From IMG/VR virus record IMGVR_UViG_3300005253_000652, positions 1 through 44,855 of that record: a stretch of DNA of 44,855 nt; one strand, 5' to 3'. The translations under genes and the position numbers were made by a program. Below, one piece after another: positions 5,540 to 44,855 of this stretch; the first letter of the stretch is position 1; each line of letters starts with the position of its first letter. This DNA is from a virus. The notes beneath the pieces are model-generated. The model worked only from the letters and a program-made list of their open reading frames with translations. It searched no databases and was not told the origin of the DNA.

Positions 5540-6925
5540 ATGACATCCCAAGAATTGCGCGAGCGCGCTGTGTGCGCGCACGCAGAGGCTGAGGCCATCC
5601 AGGCCACGGCCGAGGGTGAGGACAGGATCCTCACCGAGGACGAGCAGTCGCAGTTTGACGCCAAGCTTGCCGACCAGAAGGCGCTGTTGAATCGCGCCGA
5701 CCTGTCTGACAAGGTGGCGGCCGGGGCTGCGACCCTGAAGGAATCACAAGGGCGGAGGGTACCGGCCGGTGCCGACCTCCACATCGACGCATCGGGTCTC
5801 GACGACCTGAAGGCGGGCGACATCACGGGCGTGCGAGAGCGACTGGCAGACGATCCCAAGCTGGGCTTCGTCGGGCTGGGCGACTTCGCGACGGCGGTGA
5901 AGTCCGCGTACTCGCCCAACGCTGGGCAGGACATGGACCACCGGCTGCAGATCGGTGCAGCGGTCTCTGGACTGTCGCAGGGCACGGGCTCGGACGGCGG
6001 CTTCCTGCTCCCACCCGAGTTCTCGACCACCATCTGGGACGGGATGAACCGCGAGCCGGACAACATGCTCGCGCGCACGGACCAGTTCACGGTGACCGGT
6101 GAGTCGCTGACGTTCCCGGCCAACGCTGAGACGAGCAGAGCGACGGGTAGCCGTTGGGGCGGCATCCAGGGCTACTGGATCGCCGAAGCGGCACAGGTCA
6201 CAAAGAGCAAGCCGAAGCTGCGCCAGGTCAAGATCGAGCCGCAGCAGTTGGCGGTGCTGGTGTACGCGACGGACAAGTTGCTCAACGCATCCGGTCCGGC
6301 GCTGACCCAGTGGCTGACCCGCGCGGCCACGACTGAGATCAACTTCCTTGTGGGAAACTCGATCCTGGCTGGCGACGGCGTGGGCAAGCCGGTGGGCATC
6401 ATCGGCCACGCCTCGACCGTGAGTGTTGCGAAGGAAACGGCTGGTGGCGCGCAGGGCACCGCCACGATCGTCAAGGAGAACATCGACAAGATGTGGTCGC
6501 GGTGTCACGCGAACGCGCGCGGCAATGCGGTCTGGTTCATCAACCAGGATTGCGAGCCGCAGCTTGAGCAGTTGGCGGCGGACGTTGGCACCGGCGGCGT
6601 GCCGGTCTACCTGCCCGCGGGCGGGATCACGGACACTCCGAACGCTCGGCTGAAGGGCCGTCCGGTCGTGGTGTCTGAGTTCTGCAAGACGGTCGGGACG
6701 GTCGGGGACATCATCCTCGCCGATCTCCAGGCGTACCTCACGGGCGTCAGGGGTGGAATCGACACAGCGATGTCGATGCACCTGCGATTCGACTACCTCG
6801 AATCGGTGTTCCGCTTCGTGTTCGCTGTGGATGGGCAGCCGTGGCTAGCGTCGAAGATCACCCCGTTCAACGGCGGGTCAACCAAAACACTGTCACCGTT
6901 CGTGACACTGGCGACGAGGGCGTAA
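5540..6925 (+). CDS. Major capsid protein, HK97 fold
   Basis: Forms the icosahedral shell. The 461-aa protein has an N-terminal helical, charged region (about 1-105, rich in E, A, Q and K) resembling the HK97 delta/scaffold domain. The conserved region then starts near GTGSDGGFLLPPEF (about 147-160) and continues with the SRWGG..YWIAEAAQVTKSKPK, LLVYATDKLL-like and AGDGVGKPVGI segments typical of HK97-type capsids. The upstream S49 protease probably removes the N-terminal domain. The start codon is preceded only by a weak G-run, so control may lie in the structured leader and the dedicated promoter. Confidence 0.95.
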   Translation: MTSQELRERAVCAHAEAEAIQATAEGEDRILTEDEQSQFDAKLADQKALLNRADLSDKVAAGAATLKESQGRRVPAGADLHIDASGLDDLKAGDITGVRERLADDPKLGFVGLGDFATAVKSAYSPNAGQDMDHRLQIGAAVSGLSQGTGSDGGFLLPPEFSTTIWDGMNREPDNMLARTDQFTVTGESLTFPANAETSRATGSRWGGIQGYWIAEAAQVTKSKPKLRQVKIEPQQLAVLVYATDKLLNASGPALTQWLTRAATTEINFLVGNSILAGDGVGKPVGIIGHASTVSVAKETAGGAQGTATIVKENIDKMWSRCHANARGNAVWFINQDCEPQLEQLAADVGTGGVPVYLPAGGITDTPNARLKGRPVVVSEFCKTVGTVGDIILADLQAYLTGVRGGIDTAMSMHLRFDYLESVFRFVFAVDGQPWLASKITPFNGGSTKTLSPFVTLATRA

Positions 6926-20333: not shown

Positions 20334-21713
20334 GTGCGGGTTCGGGTCGAGATGTCCCTTGTGGTGGGCGAATCCGCCTGTATCTCCTTGACCTGCCGGG
20401 AGTTAGACGCTACCGATGAGGCGATGTCAGCCGAGCCCCAATCCGTACAGGGGGTCGTCAGGACGGCGCTCATCCCCACATTGCTCACCGCGTTCGACGG
20501 CGAGCTGGAGCGGCGCAGCGGCTCGACCGTACGCCGGGGCCAGACCGTCCGGCTGATCGGCCGCATGGCGGTGGACTATCGATGGAACGTGGCCGCCGAC
20601 GTGACCCGGGACGACATGCGGGACCACCTCACGCGGCTCGTGCGGGCCGGGCGCAAGTCCGCCACCCACAACGACAACCTCAAGAAGCTCCGGCTGTGGG
20701 GGCGGTTCCTGCACGACGAAGGGTATCTGCCCGTCGATCCGTCCGCCGGCCTGACGTTCGTTCGCAACATCTACGAGAGCGGCAGCCGCCCCTTGAGCCG
20801 CGAAGAGCTACGCGCCCTTTTCGCGCACCTGCGGGACCAGGGCGGGCAGGCGACCAGGCGGCTGGACCTGTACCAGCTCATGCTGTTCTCGGCCCTGCGG
20901 GCGTCTGAGACGCGGCGCCTGCGGGTCGGCGACATCGACCACGAGCACGGGGGAATCGCCCTGCGGGCCATCGATTCCAAGACCGGGCACGCCCGGTGGA
21001 TCAAGCTGCCCGAGGAGGTGATGGACTCGCTGGTCCGCTACACGTCAGGCCGGGCGTCCGAGGATCCGATCTGGTCGCCGTTCACACGGCGGGAGACGTT
21101 CAAGATCGACTGCAGCAAGGCCGGGATCTCGCCGGCAAAGGTGGGCTACAACAGCCTGCGTAAGAGCTTTGTTCAGTTCGCCGACCACGAGGGGTGGAGC
21201 GCCATGCAGATCGCGAAGGTGACCGGCCACCGCGATCCCGGTGCCGTCAGCAAGATCCTCTACCGCCATTATTTCACCCCGCAAGAAAAACTTACCCTCT
21301 CGAAAGTGCGTGATAGCCTGGGTTTAGGCGCGTCCCGGGGTACGGTCGCCGACGAAAATCCGAGAACGGGTGTTGACGAGGGGGGCAAAAAGCCGTATCT
21401 TGGGGTGGATCAATCGGAGGCCCCAATGGTCGCAGCCAACCCCAGCCCGCAACCGGACCCGGAAACGTCGATCGCGGTCGCTCCGATTGATCTTGGCAGC
21501 GACCAAGCCGCGGTCGGCGGCTCCGGGCCTGGGCGGGCGCGTAGCTCAGTTGGTTACAGAGAACCGGACGATGACGAGCCTCCTGCGGGCGCGGGGTACG
21601 CCGGGCGGGACGCTGGGCGCGGGGAACGGGACACACTGAAAGAAGCCGAACTGGCGGGCGTGGCGATCGCCGCGTGGCTGCGCGCCCGGTTCGGGCGAGG
21701 AGGTCGCGAGTGA
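20334..21713 (+). CDS. int: Tyrosine-family integrase
   Basis: Catalyses attP x attB recombination. In the 459-aa ORF an N-terminal SAM-like core-binding domain covers about 50-145. The catalytic domain shows Arg189 (ALRASETRRL), Lys216 (SKTGH), Arg276 in NSLRKSF, His299 (GHRDP) and Tyr310 (YRH). The usual His three residues before Arg276 is Asn273. GTG 20334 follows GGGGAG with 7-nt spacing. The final ~130 residues are low-complexity and run through a tRNA-derived attP candidate. ATG 21426, with GGAGG and an upstream promoter, could start a separate 95-aa product in the same frame. It ends in a GTGA overlap. Confidence 0.88.
   Translation: MRVRVEMSLVVGESACISLTCRELDATDEAMSAEPQSVQGVVRTALIPTLLTAFDGELERRSGSTVRRGQTVRLIGRMAVDYRWNVAADVTRDDMRDHLTRLVRAGRKSATHNDNLKKLRLWGRFLHDEGYLPVDPSAGLTFVRNIYESGSRPLSREELRALFAHLRDQGGQATRRLDLYQLMLFSALRASETRRLRVGDIDHEHGGIALRAIDSKTGHARWIKLPEEVMDSLVRYTSGRASEDPIWSPFTRRETFKIDCSKAGISPAKVGYNSLRKSFVQFADHEGWSAMQIAKVTGHRDPGAVSKILYRHYFTPQEKLTLSKVRDSLGLGASRGTVADENPRTGVDEGGKKPYLGVDQSEAPMVAANPSPQPDPETSIAVAPIDLGSDQAAVGGSGPGRARSSVGYREPDDDEPPAGAGYAGRDAGRGERDTLKEAELAGVAIAAWLRARFGRGGRE
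21373..21401 (+). promoter_or_regulatory. Promoter candidate inside the integrase 3' region
   Basis: TTGACG at 21373-21378, a 17-nt spacer and TATCTT at 21396-21401. It lies 134 nt upstream of the tRNA-like segment and just before a GGAGG-ATG (21416-21428) in the integrase frame. It may drive a downstream short product, or supply transcription to the hybrid tRNA gene after integration. Confidence 0.45.
21535..21561 (+). other. attP core candidate: 5' segment of a tRNA gene
   Basis: 27 nt that read as a tRNA 5' portion: a 7-nt acceptor strand GGGCGCG, then TAGCTCAGTTGGTTA and CAGAG, the universal D-arm pattern. No anticodon arm, T-arm or CCA end follows, so it is not a complete tRNA. Phage attP sites commonly carry a piece of the host tRNA gene used as attB, and this one lies in the 3' part of the integrase gene. 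The isoacceptor cannot be named from this portion. Confidence 0.65.
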
Positions 21714-22057
21714 CCACCTACGGCGTCCCAAGCAACGCGCCCCTCTTCAGCGCCCACGCCCGTGCCCGCCGCGCCGACCCCGCAACGTCGCACCGGGCGG
21801 CGGCCACAGCCGAGTCGAGCGGCAACGCGACTCGCCAGCGCACGGCGTGTCTAGAGGCCGTCCGCGCCACGCCCGGCATGACCGCGGGCGAGATCGACAA
21901 GCGGTGCGGGTTCATGGACCGCTTCGTCGCGGGTCGGCGTCTGCCCGAGTTGCGGGAGATGGGACTGATTCACAACGGCGACGCGCGCGTGTGCTCGGTG
22001 CGCGGGTCGCGCCAGATGACGTGGTATCCGGCTGGACCGACTGGCGGTGGGGGATGA
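21710..22057 (+). CDS. Winged-helix-like DNA-binding protein
   Basis: A 115-aa protein from GTG 21710 in a GTGA overlap with the integrase gene. After an Ala/Arg-rich N-terminus, the C-terminal half (VRATPGMTAGEIDKRCG...RRLPELREMGLIHNGD...TWYP) fits a small winged-helix domain found in phage proteins. It could regulate early genes or integration. It ends before the regulatory stretch with tandem terminators. Confidence 0.6.
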   Translation: MTTYGVPSNAPLFSAHARARRADPATSHRAAATAESSGNATRQRTACLEAVRATPGMTAGEIDKRCGFMDRFVAGRRLPELREMGLIHNGDARVCSVRGSRQMTWYPAGPTGGGG

Positions 22058-22439
22058 CGAACACACACAAGCAAGTCTCCTCCGCCGACCCGCGCACCGA
22101 GCGTTACCGGCCTTCGGGCTTTGGGGCTCCGCGCGGGTCGGTACTTTCGCATCATCGAGCGCCGCACGGACTGCGGCCATGCACGCACCGCGTCGGCGTG
22201 GACCACCGCCGTCGCGGGTTCTGTTTTCTCTTAGCCATGGCGCAGAGCAGCGCGCAGATTACACGACCCGCCCCAACCGGCGCGTGGCCATGGGCCAGCG
22301 ACCACAAAAAGGGCGCAGCGTCACCGTATGGTGGCGAGTTGCGGCGACGGCCGGGTGGGATTCCAGCGTCCCGAAGGCTGGTTGCGCGCTGCGTTCGCCG
22401 ACGGGCGACTGCGCCGTTTTCTTCTCTCTCTCCCTCCAG

Positions 22440-29085: not shown

Positions 29086-29176
29086 GCCCGGTGTGAACCT
29101 CCGCTGCCTGCGAGTCGGCCTGCCGGTCGGCGTGGCACTGTGGCTGCTGGCGTGGGCGATCTGGAGGGCGCTGTGA
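29075..29176 (+). CDS. 33-aa single-span membrane protein
   Basis: From GTG 29075, 7 nt after AAGGAGG, to TGA 29174-29176. The sequence has a basic N-terminus and one hydrophobic helix (GLPVGVALWLLAWAIW). Its stop overlaps the methyltransferase start (GTGA). It could be a small membrane regulator or a coupling peptide. Confidence 0.5.
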   Translation: MPSKPGVNLRCLRVGLPVGVALWLLAWAIWRAL

Positions 29177-30654
29177 TCGACACCGGCGACGCGATCGAGG
29201 TGCTGGCGACGCTGCCCGAGCGGCACTTTCATTGCGTGGTGACGAGCCCGCCGTACTTCGGCCTGCGCGACTACGGCACGGCGGAGTGGGAGGGTGGGGA
29301 CGCGACGTGCGATCACAACGATGCACAAAGGTCGTTCGCTGATGGTTGTATTGAGTGCGGTGGGAATATGGACAAGTTCACCGGAGACTGCAAACACTGT
29401 GATGATAGAAAACTGAAGCGGCAACTACGCGGAACACCCGAAAAAAACTATACCGCGAAAGACCCAACACGCCCGGATCTTCCCAACCCTCCGGCGTCAT
29501 GGTCTACCCGTGACGTAACGGTGAAGTCGGTGACAGGGGTTTGCCACAAGTGCGGCGCGAAGCGGATCGACCGCCAGGGCGGGCTCCAGTCCACGCCGGA
29601 CGAGTACGTGGCGTGGCTGGTCGAGGTGTTCAAGGGGGTCAAGCGCGTGCTGCGCGACGACGGCGTGTGCTTTGTGAACTTGGGGGATTCGTACAACGCG
29701 AACCAAGGCGCGGGGTTCAATGCACACGCAAAAACTCGGCCGCACCTTTCGGGCGAGGGCGTTGGGCAGAAAAGGATTCCCCATAGCAGCCGAAATACAG
29801 TGGCGAAGCGCCCCGCAGGTGTCAAGCCGAAGGATCTCATGGGTATGCCCTGGCGGGTCGCGTTCGCGCTGCAGGCGGACGGCTGGTGGCTGCGCAGCGC
29901 GATTATCTGGCACAAGCCTGCGCCGATGCCGGGCTCGCAGCAGGACCGCTGCACGTCGAGTTACGAGTTCGTGTTTCAGTTGACGAAGCGAGCGCGGTGC
30001 TACTTTGACTTGCACGCAATCAGGGAGAAGGGCGCGACCGGATCGTGGGATGCCATGCCACCGATCGGCGGCGTGAAGGCTCCGGGCAACAACGGCAACC
30101 CGGTGTATTCCGGCGATACACCAAGCAGCGATGGGATGAGAACGCCGCGAGATGTCTGGAAGATCGCGCACGACGGGTTCGCGGGCGCGCACTTCGCGAC
30201 GTTCCCAATCGAACTCCCCACCCGCTGCATCAAGGCCGCGACGAGCGAGCGCGGGTGCTGCCCGGCGTGCGGCGCGGCGTGGGTGCGGGTGGTGGAGAAG
30301 GACCGCAAGCCGACGCGACCCGGGCGGAACAACGTGAGCGATGAGACCGGGCGGGCCAACCGCGACGAGCAGCGGCACGTGACCGAGACCAAGACGGTCG
30401 GCTGGATGGCTGCGTGCAACTGCCCGCTCGATACGCGAACCAGGTCCGTCCCCTGCCGCGTCCTCGACCCGTTCATGGGCGCGGGCACGACCGCCATCGC
30501 CGCCAACCGCCTCGGCCGCGACTGGACCGGCATCGAACTCAACCCCGAGTACGTCAAAATGGCCAACGACCGCATCGGCAAGGACGCGAACCCGGCCACG
30601 CACCGGAGCGACGACGCGGGCGACGCGCCGCTGTTTGCGAAGGAGCAGGCATGA
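29173..30654 (+). CDS. DNA N4/N6 amino-methyltransferase
   Basis: A 493-aa DNA methyltransferase that should transfer a methyl group from S-adenosylmethionine to adenine N6 or cytosine N4. Motif IV TSPPYFGL is at 24-31 and the AdoMet-binding DPFMGAGTT at 432-440, the beta-class order. Between them lie zinc-ribbon-like inserts: CIECGG...CKHC and CHKCGAKR in the first 140 residues and CCPACG plus a later CNC near the end, likely target recognition or structural zinc sites. GTG 29173 follows GGAGGGCG. It could shield phage DNA from host restriction or pair with the nuclease at 31075. Confidence 0.85.
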   Translation: MIDTGDAIEVLATLPERHFHCVVTSPPYFGLRDYGTAEWEGGDATCDHNDAQRSFADGCIECGGNMDKFTGDCKHCDDRKLKRQLRGTPEKNYTAKDPTRPDLPNPPASWSTRDVTVKSVTGVCHKCGAKRIDRQGGLQSTPDEYVAWLVEVFKGVKRVLRDDGVCFVNLGDSYNANQGAGFNAHAKTRPHLSGEGVGQKRIPHSSRNTVAKRPAGVKPKDLMGMPWRVAFALQADGWWLRSAIIWHKPAPMPGSQQDRCTSSYEFVFQLTKRARCYFDLHAIREKGATGSWDAMPPIGGVKAPGNNGNPVYSGDTPSSDGMRTPRDVWKIAHDGFAGAHFATFPIELPTRCIKAATSERGCCPACGAAWVRVVEKDRKPTRPGRNNVSDETGRANRDEQRHVTETKTVGWMAACNCPLDTRTRSVPCRVLDPFMGAGTTAIAANRLGRDWTGIELNPEYVKMANDRIGKDANPATHRSDDAGDAPLFAKEQA

Positions 30655-44012: not shown

Positions 44013-44855
44013 GGGGGTATGTGTGTCGTGTGATGGGCCTGCGGGGGTGTTTGAGGGCAATGGGCGAACGCGCAAGCAGTGCAATGCGTGCAGGCACGCC
44101 AACCGTCCAACGCCCAACAGCAAGCGATGGGGTGGGCGGTGTGCCCACTGTGGCAAGGCGTTTACGGCGTACCGGCCGCAGACGTATTGCTCTAGGCGGT
44201 GCGCTCGGGAGGTGAGGCAGAGGCCGCCGTGCGAGTGTAAGCAATGTGGCAGAGAGTTCGTGCCCAAGGCTGTGGACCGAACGACGTATTGTTCGCGGGA
44301 CTGTGCGTTCGACGCCAAGTCGGAGGGGCATAACGAACGAGAGGCGAGGGTGGCGGCTGAGCGTGCGTTGTGGAAGGCGGGTGTGTGCGAGGTGTGTGGG
44401 AAGCCGTTTGAGCGATCTATGCGGCAGTCGCGATTGTGCTCGCGCGAGTGCTGGCTGCAGAGTGGTCGTGACAGATACCACGCAACGTATGAGCCGACGC
44501 CCGAACGTATGGCAGCGTGTCGGCAATGTGGCGAGTCGATAACCTGGCGCGGCAGGGGGAAGCGGAAGTATTGCGGTGCGTGCCGGGCGATGCACGACGC
44601 CGCGGGGAACTCTGTCTGTGCCCATCGTCGGCGTGCGAGGCTGGGCGGTGCGCAGAGCGAGAGCATAGACCCAGTGGTGCTGTTCGAGATTGACGACTGG
44701 GTGTGTCAACTGTGTGGTGGCCTGGTGCAGCAGTATCCAAAGAGCGACCGCTCATGGCACGACGACCGCGCGAACATCGATCACATCGTCCCGCTCTCGC
44801 GGGGTGGTAGCCACACGTGGGGCAACGTGCAGACGGCGTGCGCGCACTGCAACTG
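43987..44855 (+). CDS. Zinc-ribbon HNH protein running into the small terminase (partial at window end)
   Basis: Starts at ATG 43987 and stays open to the last base (289 codons plus TG). It has an N-terminal Cys cluster, then four tandem ribbons of the CxxCGxxF...YCSxxC kind (CAHC/YCSRRC, CKQC/YCSRDC, CEVC/LCSREC, CRQC/YCGAC), and an HNH domain with CQLCGG, NIDHIVPLSRGG and a final CAHCN. Joining base 44855 to base 1 gives TGG, then KKHAR, which completes a CNxxKxxR HNH ending and continues in frame to ATG 38. A 456-aa HNH-small-terminase fusion is therefore predicted if the genome is circular. Confidence 0.8.
   Translation, partial: MDAVAVRAEGVCVSCDGPAGVFEGNGRTRKQCNACRHANRPTPNSKRWGGRCAHCGKAFTAYRPQTYCSRRCAREVRQRPPCECKQCGREFVPKAVDRTTYCSRDCAFDAKSEGHNEREARVAAERALWKAGVCEVCGKPFERSMRQSRLCSRECWLQSGRDRYHATYEPTPERMAACRQCGESITWRGRGKRKYCGACRAMHDAAGNSVCAHRRRARLGGAQSESIDPVVLFEIDDWVCQLCGGLVQQYPKSDRSWHDDRANIDHIVPLSRGGSHTWGNVQTACAHCN

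Follow-up and report, generated by a model that had tools for sequence, protein, structure and literature searches.

Does a tRNA fragment lying inside the reading frame of a phage integrase act as the phage attachment site (attP), and what would integration then do to the integrase? The question arises from a 44,855-base virus record (IMG/VR record IMGVR_UViG_3300005253_000652; the whole stretch is termed the window), in which terminase, portal, capsid and tape-measure genes occupy the left part and a tyrosine integrase gene (int) lies at 20334–21713. We find that the fragment is a genuine tRNA 5′ end, and its position and surroundings suggest that it probably forms the core of the phage's own attP, in a non-conserved tail of Int.

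The integrase gene and its neighbours

Int belongs to the tyrosine recombinases/integrases, with a PF00589 match above the Pfam cut-off (E=1.5e-11, residues 154–312) and a catalytic domain carrying the R-K-(H)xxR-H-Y residues. A PHROG integrase profile matched residues 67–353 (E=2.5e-25). R189, K216, R276 and H299 were invariant in an alignment of four sequences (Int and three distant homologues); box II reads NSLR, and the nucleophile Y310 was assigned by motif only (LYRHY). Close relatives of Int were found neither in IMG/VR nor in phage records, a single weak plasmid match aside, and a search for relatives via neighbouring genes in IMG/VR gave no useful matches. A structure predicted for Int by itself had a pLDDT of 41 and gave no useful information. 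Coordinates of int, its parts and the gene that follows are collected in Table 1, together with the tRNA sequences found near homologous integrases.

Two other regions of the window were recorded. Near the gene 3′ of int lies a 15-nt perfect inverted repeat (21995–22009 / 22086–22100, within window 21995–22141, plus strand), and an additional hairpin-like stretch follows that gene in the same region. A DNA methyltransferase of 504 residues is encoded at 29140–30654 on the plus strand (PF01555, PHROG 67). Its PHROG match runs from residue 16 to residue 484 yet covers only about 220 profile positions, indicating a long insertion or extra domain between the conserved parts.

Table 1. Features of the int region (window coordinates) and tRNA sequences near int in the planctomycete homologues
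Feature	Position	Strand or orientation	Remarks
Tyrosine integrase ORF (int)	20334..21713	+	459 aa; GTG start as listed (putative start)
C-terminal extension after catalytic domain	21330..21713	+	~codons 333–459; open, weakly coding; holds att candidate
Internal in-frame ATG, preceded by GGAGG	21426..21713	+	possible separate 95-aa product spanning att candidate
tRNA 5′ end, attP core candidate	21535..21556	+	GGGCGCGTAGCTCAGTTGGTTA; exact to real tRNA genes
CA insertion relative to tRNAs	21557..21558	+	exact gap placement ambiguous by a base
Possible tRNA-Asp continuation to anticodon stem	21559..21569	+	GAGnACCGGAC; borderline (4% of shuffles reach)
Next gene	21710..22057	+	start overlaps int stop (GTGA at 21710); RBS AGGAGGT; phrog_1123, unknown function
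L090: tRNA-Ala 3′ end, 24 nt		sense	inside int ORF
L091: whole tRNA-Gly(CCC)		antisense	overlaps int end
L092: whole tRNA-Gly(CCC)		antisense	past catalytic domain
L093: tRNA-Gly 3′ end, 34 nt		antisense	inside int ORF
L094: tRNA-Asp		antisense	inside int ORF

A tRNA 5′ end within the integrase frame

The original prediction had placed a tRNA 5′ fragment of 27 nt at 21535–21561, in int codons 401–410. Such a fragment is present there, recognizable as tRNA by its alignment scores and by exact copies in tRNA genes. The predicted extent stood letter for letter over 21535–21556 (codons 401–408), which comprises the acceptor 5′ strand, positions 8–9, the D-stem and the D-loop; it failed at the CAGAG end, which holds the CA insertion. 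The catalytic Tyr310 precedes the fragment by about 90 codons, and the distance to the Tyr codon is less than 300 nt. The rest of the tRNA is missing, as had been predicted: ARAGORN detected no whole tRNA in the window and Rfam no tRNA. A separate Rfam match to gntR-DTE was dismissed (20 bits versus a cut-off of 63.6).

At up to 2 mismatches, TAGCTCAGTTGGTTA occurred once in the window and in none of 100 shuffles. Local alignment of the int tail to 118 tRNAs reached a score of 52, compared with 34 or less for 300 codon-shuffles; 196 other window stretches, under the same scoring with a smaller tRNA set, also remained at or below 34. The int-tail fragment was the only tRNA-like stretch found in the phage. 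With up to 2 mismatches allowed, the 22-mer matched in 93 of 100 genomes related to the metagenome-assembled genome (MAG) described below, against 0 for a reversed control, and the matches inspected were tRNA genes. Exact copies were seen in 11 other IMG/VR contigs, ten of them in tRNA genes (nine Val, one Lys) and the last inside a tRNA-Val 5′ half.

Isotype scores for the fragment were 52 for Asp and 47 for Val, a weak indication that its best match may be planctomycete tRNA-Asp (GTC) or tRNA-Val. The tRNA-Asp of related genomes carries GGGCGCGTAGCTCAATTGGTTA and tRNA-Val(TAC) carries GGGCGCGTAGCTCAGTTGGCTA; in several of these genomes tRNA-Val(TAC) matched the fragment exactly over 19 nt. 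We rejected tRNA-His as the target: it requires a G immediately before GGGCGCG, a position where the phage has C, and tRNA-His of related genomes fitted less well. In its favour, it is the single isotype absent from the tRNAs found in the MAG, as expected if integration had disrupted the gene.

tRNA sequences beside homologous integrases

Among 397 related genomes, five distant planctomycete homologues of Int were identified (26–32% identity). All five have tRNA sequence at most ~400 nt beyond the catalytic domain, whether in, overlapping or just past the end of the int ORF (Table 1). About 78 nt past the int stop, the viral homologues L128–L130, taken as one case (identical score), carry a sense tRNA-Leu 5′ half, whose end falls in the anticodon loop. 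This recurrence of tRNA sequence at the matching place indicates that the fragment occupies the location of an attachment site.

In another phage (L140, 7340–7580), a sense tRNA-Val(CAC) 5′ half lies about 80 nt past a tyrosine integrase gene and has TTGGCCCGGA-type repeats on either side; this region is probably the attP of that phage. L140 and L128, both tRNA-targeting with a 5′ tDNA fragment, resemble the present phage in that a 5′ tRNA half, in sense, follows closely after the integrase catalytic domain. In both, int stops before the fragment, whereas here the int frame reads through it.

A different arrangement was observed in a related genome (G048, L064 1481–2047). There, the 5′ part of tRNA-His occurs twice together with its upstream sequence, the copies lying about 470 nt apart and enclosing a GIY-YIG nuclease ORF (PF01541), and an intact tRNA-His then follows. 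The arrangement resembles the insertion of a small nuclease element into a tRNA gene, with the tRNA restored.

The C-terminal tail of Int

The third-position GC of int drops after 21234 (~codon 300) from 0.90–0.94 to 0.60–0.70, and the C-terminal extension had no PHROG match. Because GGAGG precedes the in-frame ATG at 21426, a separate small product is possible. The att site might then sit in a small gene of its own (21426–21713), in frame with int by accident, and integration would leave the functional integrase unchanged. Such a gene is compatible with an attP and disputes only the alteration of Int. Its ATG has a good RBS, the abrupt shift in codon composition after the catalytic domain fits it, and the L128 and L140 integrases end before their tRNA fragments. 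However, no stop separates it from int and the 95-aa piece has no family match, and we regard a separate gene as doubtful.

A 12-nt perfect inverted repeat (GATCAATCGGAG / CTCCGATTGATC, 61 nt apart, window 21408–21492, plus strand) lies directly left of the att candidate and may represent a site bound by protein or a coincidence. Around the att candidate no significant arm-type repeats were detected, only matches of roughly chance size.

Host and search for integration products

In a collection of 85,000 species, the 23-mer GCGTAGCTCAGTTGGTTACAGAG was found in one genome only, the MAG Phycisphaerae bacterium HyVt-337. There it sits in the phage itself, with an identical integrase, and contigs C67, C87, C9 and C41 of this MAG are 100% identical to the phage and account for most of its length. 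The presence of the phage inside HyVt-337 contigs, together with similar G+C (63%, sampled, versus 64%), suggests a host among the Phycisphaerae (Planctomycetota). Host junctions were absent from HyVt-337, and no phage contig extends beyond the window. The att candidate is spanned continuously in both assemblies, which is what phage DNA in the unintegrated state would show and so favours the attP reading. At the right end, MAG contig C41 (of G001) stops 12 nt short of the window end (44843–44855), and the terminase gene lies at the opposite window end from this shared assembly stop. Two assemblies stopping at nearly the same place may reflect a physical genome end (cos site).

HyVt-337 has 46 tRNA genes, the closest only 85–90% identical to the fragment over 21–27 nt, and neither its tRNA-Asp nor its tRNA-Val has an acceptor stem that would pair with GGGCGCG. 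None of the 397 related genomes yielded a tRNA that contains the 22-mer exactly. A search for host tRNA genes containing the full string had been proposed with the original prediction; strings of 21 to 29 nt (the last at up to 3 mismatches) matched the phage itself only. The proposed comparison of attL and attR likewise yielded neither, nor was an empty site found. The attP candidate thus gains from its position and from the homologues, and not from an integration product.

These searches bear on whether the fragment is a relic no longer in use, derived from a decayed attP or from a piece of captured tRNA, with the phage integrating elsewhere or never. A relic would fit the indel and mismatches seen against every tRNA aligned over a longer stretch, the lack of an exact host tRNA in 397 relatives and the poor match of the MAG tRNAs. 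It is harder to reconcile with 22 contiguous nt that are still exact to real tRNA genes, with intact catalytic residues in Int and with the retention of tRNA at this place in five of five homologues; on balance we consider it unlikely. A chance resemblance within ordinary coding sequence (peptide RARSSVG) would explain an integrase frame open across the fragment, but is scarcely credible against a score of 52 where the shuffles and other window stretches peaked at 34, and against other exact IMG/VR copies that are tRNA genes or a tRNA half in 11 of 11 cases.

We weighed the attP reading on its own evidence. In its favour are the sole tRNA-like place in the phage, near the Tyr codon, the tRNAs of the homologues, and a tail that loses coding composition; as in tRNA-targeting phages generally, a tRNA gene fragment adjoins int. 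Against it stand the missing attL, attR and empty site, the missing exact host tRNA, the poor match to MAG tRNAs and the lack of arm-type repeats. We also counted against it that a 5′ tRNA fragment is the minority form, seen in 159 of 3919 islands (PMC4383910).

Predicted effect of integration on Int

If the fragment is the attP core, Int would recombine this sequence with the 5′ portion of a tRNA gene in the host; the likeliest targets are tRNA-Asp(GTC) and tRNA-Val with the acceptor strand GGGCGCG. The int-side junction would then hold a complete tRNA, composed of the phage 5′ part and the host remainder, and the displaced tRNA 5′ fragment would stay at the other junction. Described crossover subsites are the anticodon loop, the T loop and the 3′ end; a crossover in the D-arm would be unusual, a further point against the attP reading.

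Joining int in silico at TAGCTCA to all the tRNA-Asp (7), tRNA-Ile (12) and tRNA-Val (24) sequences collected gave TAG at codon 408 in every case, because the D-loops of these tRNAs read GG(T/C)TAG or similar. A phage copy without the CA gave the same stop in silico; the CA insertion removes the in-frame TAG expected at codon 408 from tRNA-Asp/Val/Ile. With this stop, a crossover left of the CA would end the prophage int at the in-frame TAG of the tRNA, yielding an Int of 407 rather than 459 residues and no host-coded tail, probably a plain truncation for the likeliest targets. The 52 residues lost after codon 407 agree with the predicted loss of about 50. The accompanying idea that host-encoded sequence would replace them is probably wrong for these targets, given such a crossover. 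Were the crossover further right, the int frame would continue into the tRNA.

Truncation might also work as a switch. Free phage would make the 459-residue Int, since the CA insertion removes the host-type TAG, and integration would restore this TAG to leave a 407-residue Int with different activity in the lysogen, such as a shifted ratio of integration to excision. We regard such a switch as rather improbable.

Relation to known systems

Integration of Mx8, which targets tandem tRNA-Asp genes, has been demonstrated; here it is predicted from sequence. The Mx8 attP is located in int, which acquires a different 3′ end upon integration, and this alters Int behaviour without inactivation (PMC6070905). 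The present attP candidate likewise falls inside the int coding sequence and, as in Mx8, the putative core is in frame downstream of the catalytic domain. Inside the frame of Mx8 int (AF396866, 5085–6809) we located a 27-nt antisense tRNA-Asp-like stretch at record position ~6442–6468. This stretch corresponds to an antisense tRNA 3′ end, whereas the fragment here is a sense tRNA 5′ end, and direct comparison of the two Int proteins detected no similarity.

In archaeal suicidal integrases the site is also inside the gene, with pTN3-like elements using the tRNA 5′ half, and a review describes the class as exclusively archaeal (PMC8371274). The SSV-type and pTN3-type share with our candidate a target site within the integrase gene. 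Their genes are split and no intact integrase is left, whereas in our phage integration would leave the catalytic domain intact (to ~codon 332): judged by position only, all catalytic residues lie upstream of the fragment. An attP inside int is thus an already known principle. The original prediction had presented an altered integrase as a new twist; Mx8 (PMC6070905) and SSV (PMC4383910) precede it, and the Islander method allows integrases that extend across attP, naming both (PMC4383910).

If the attP reading is true, the attP-in-int principle of Mx8 would extend to a Planctomycetota phage, with the less common sense 5′ tRNA part, and would suggest that many planctomycete integrases read through their own attachment site. 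For annotation, it would also be a warning that what looks like the C-terminus of an integrase of this kind may be att sequence and not conserved protein.
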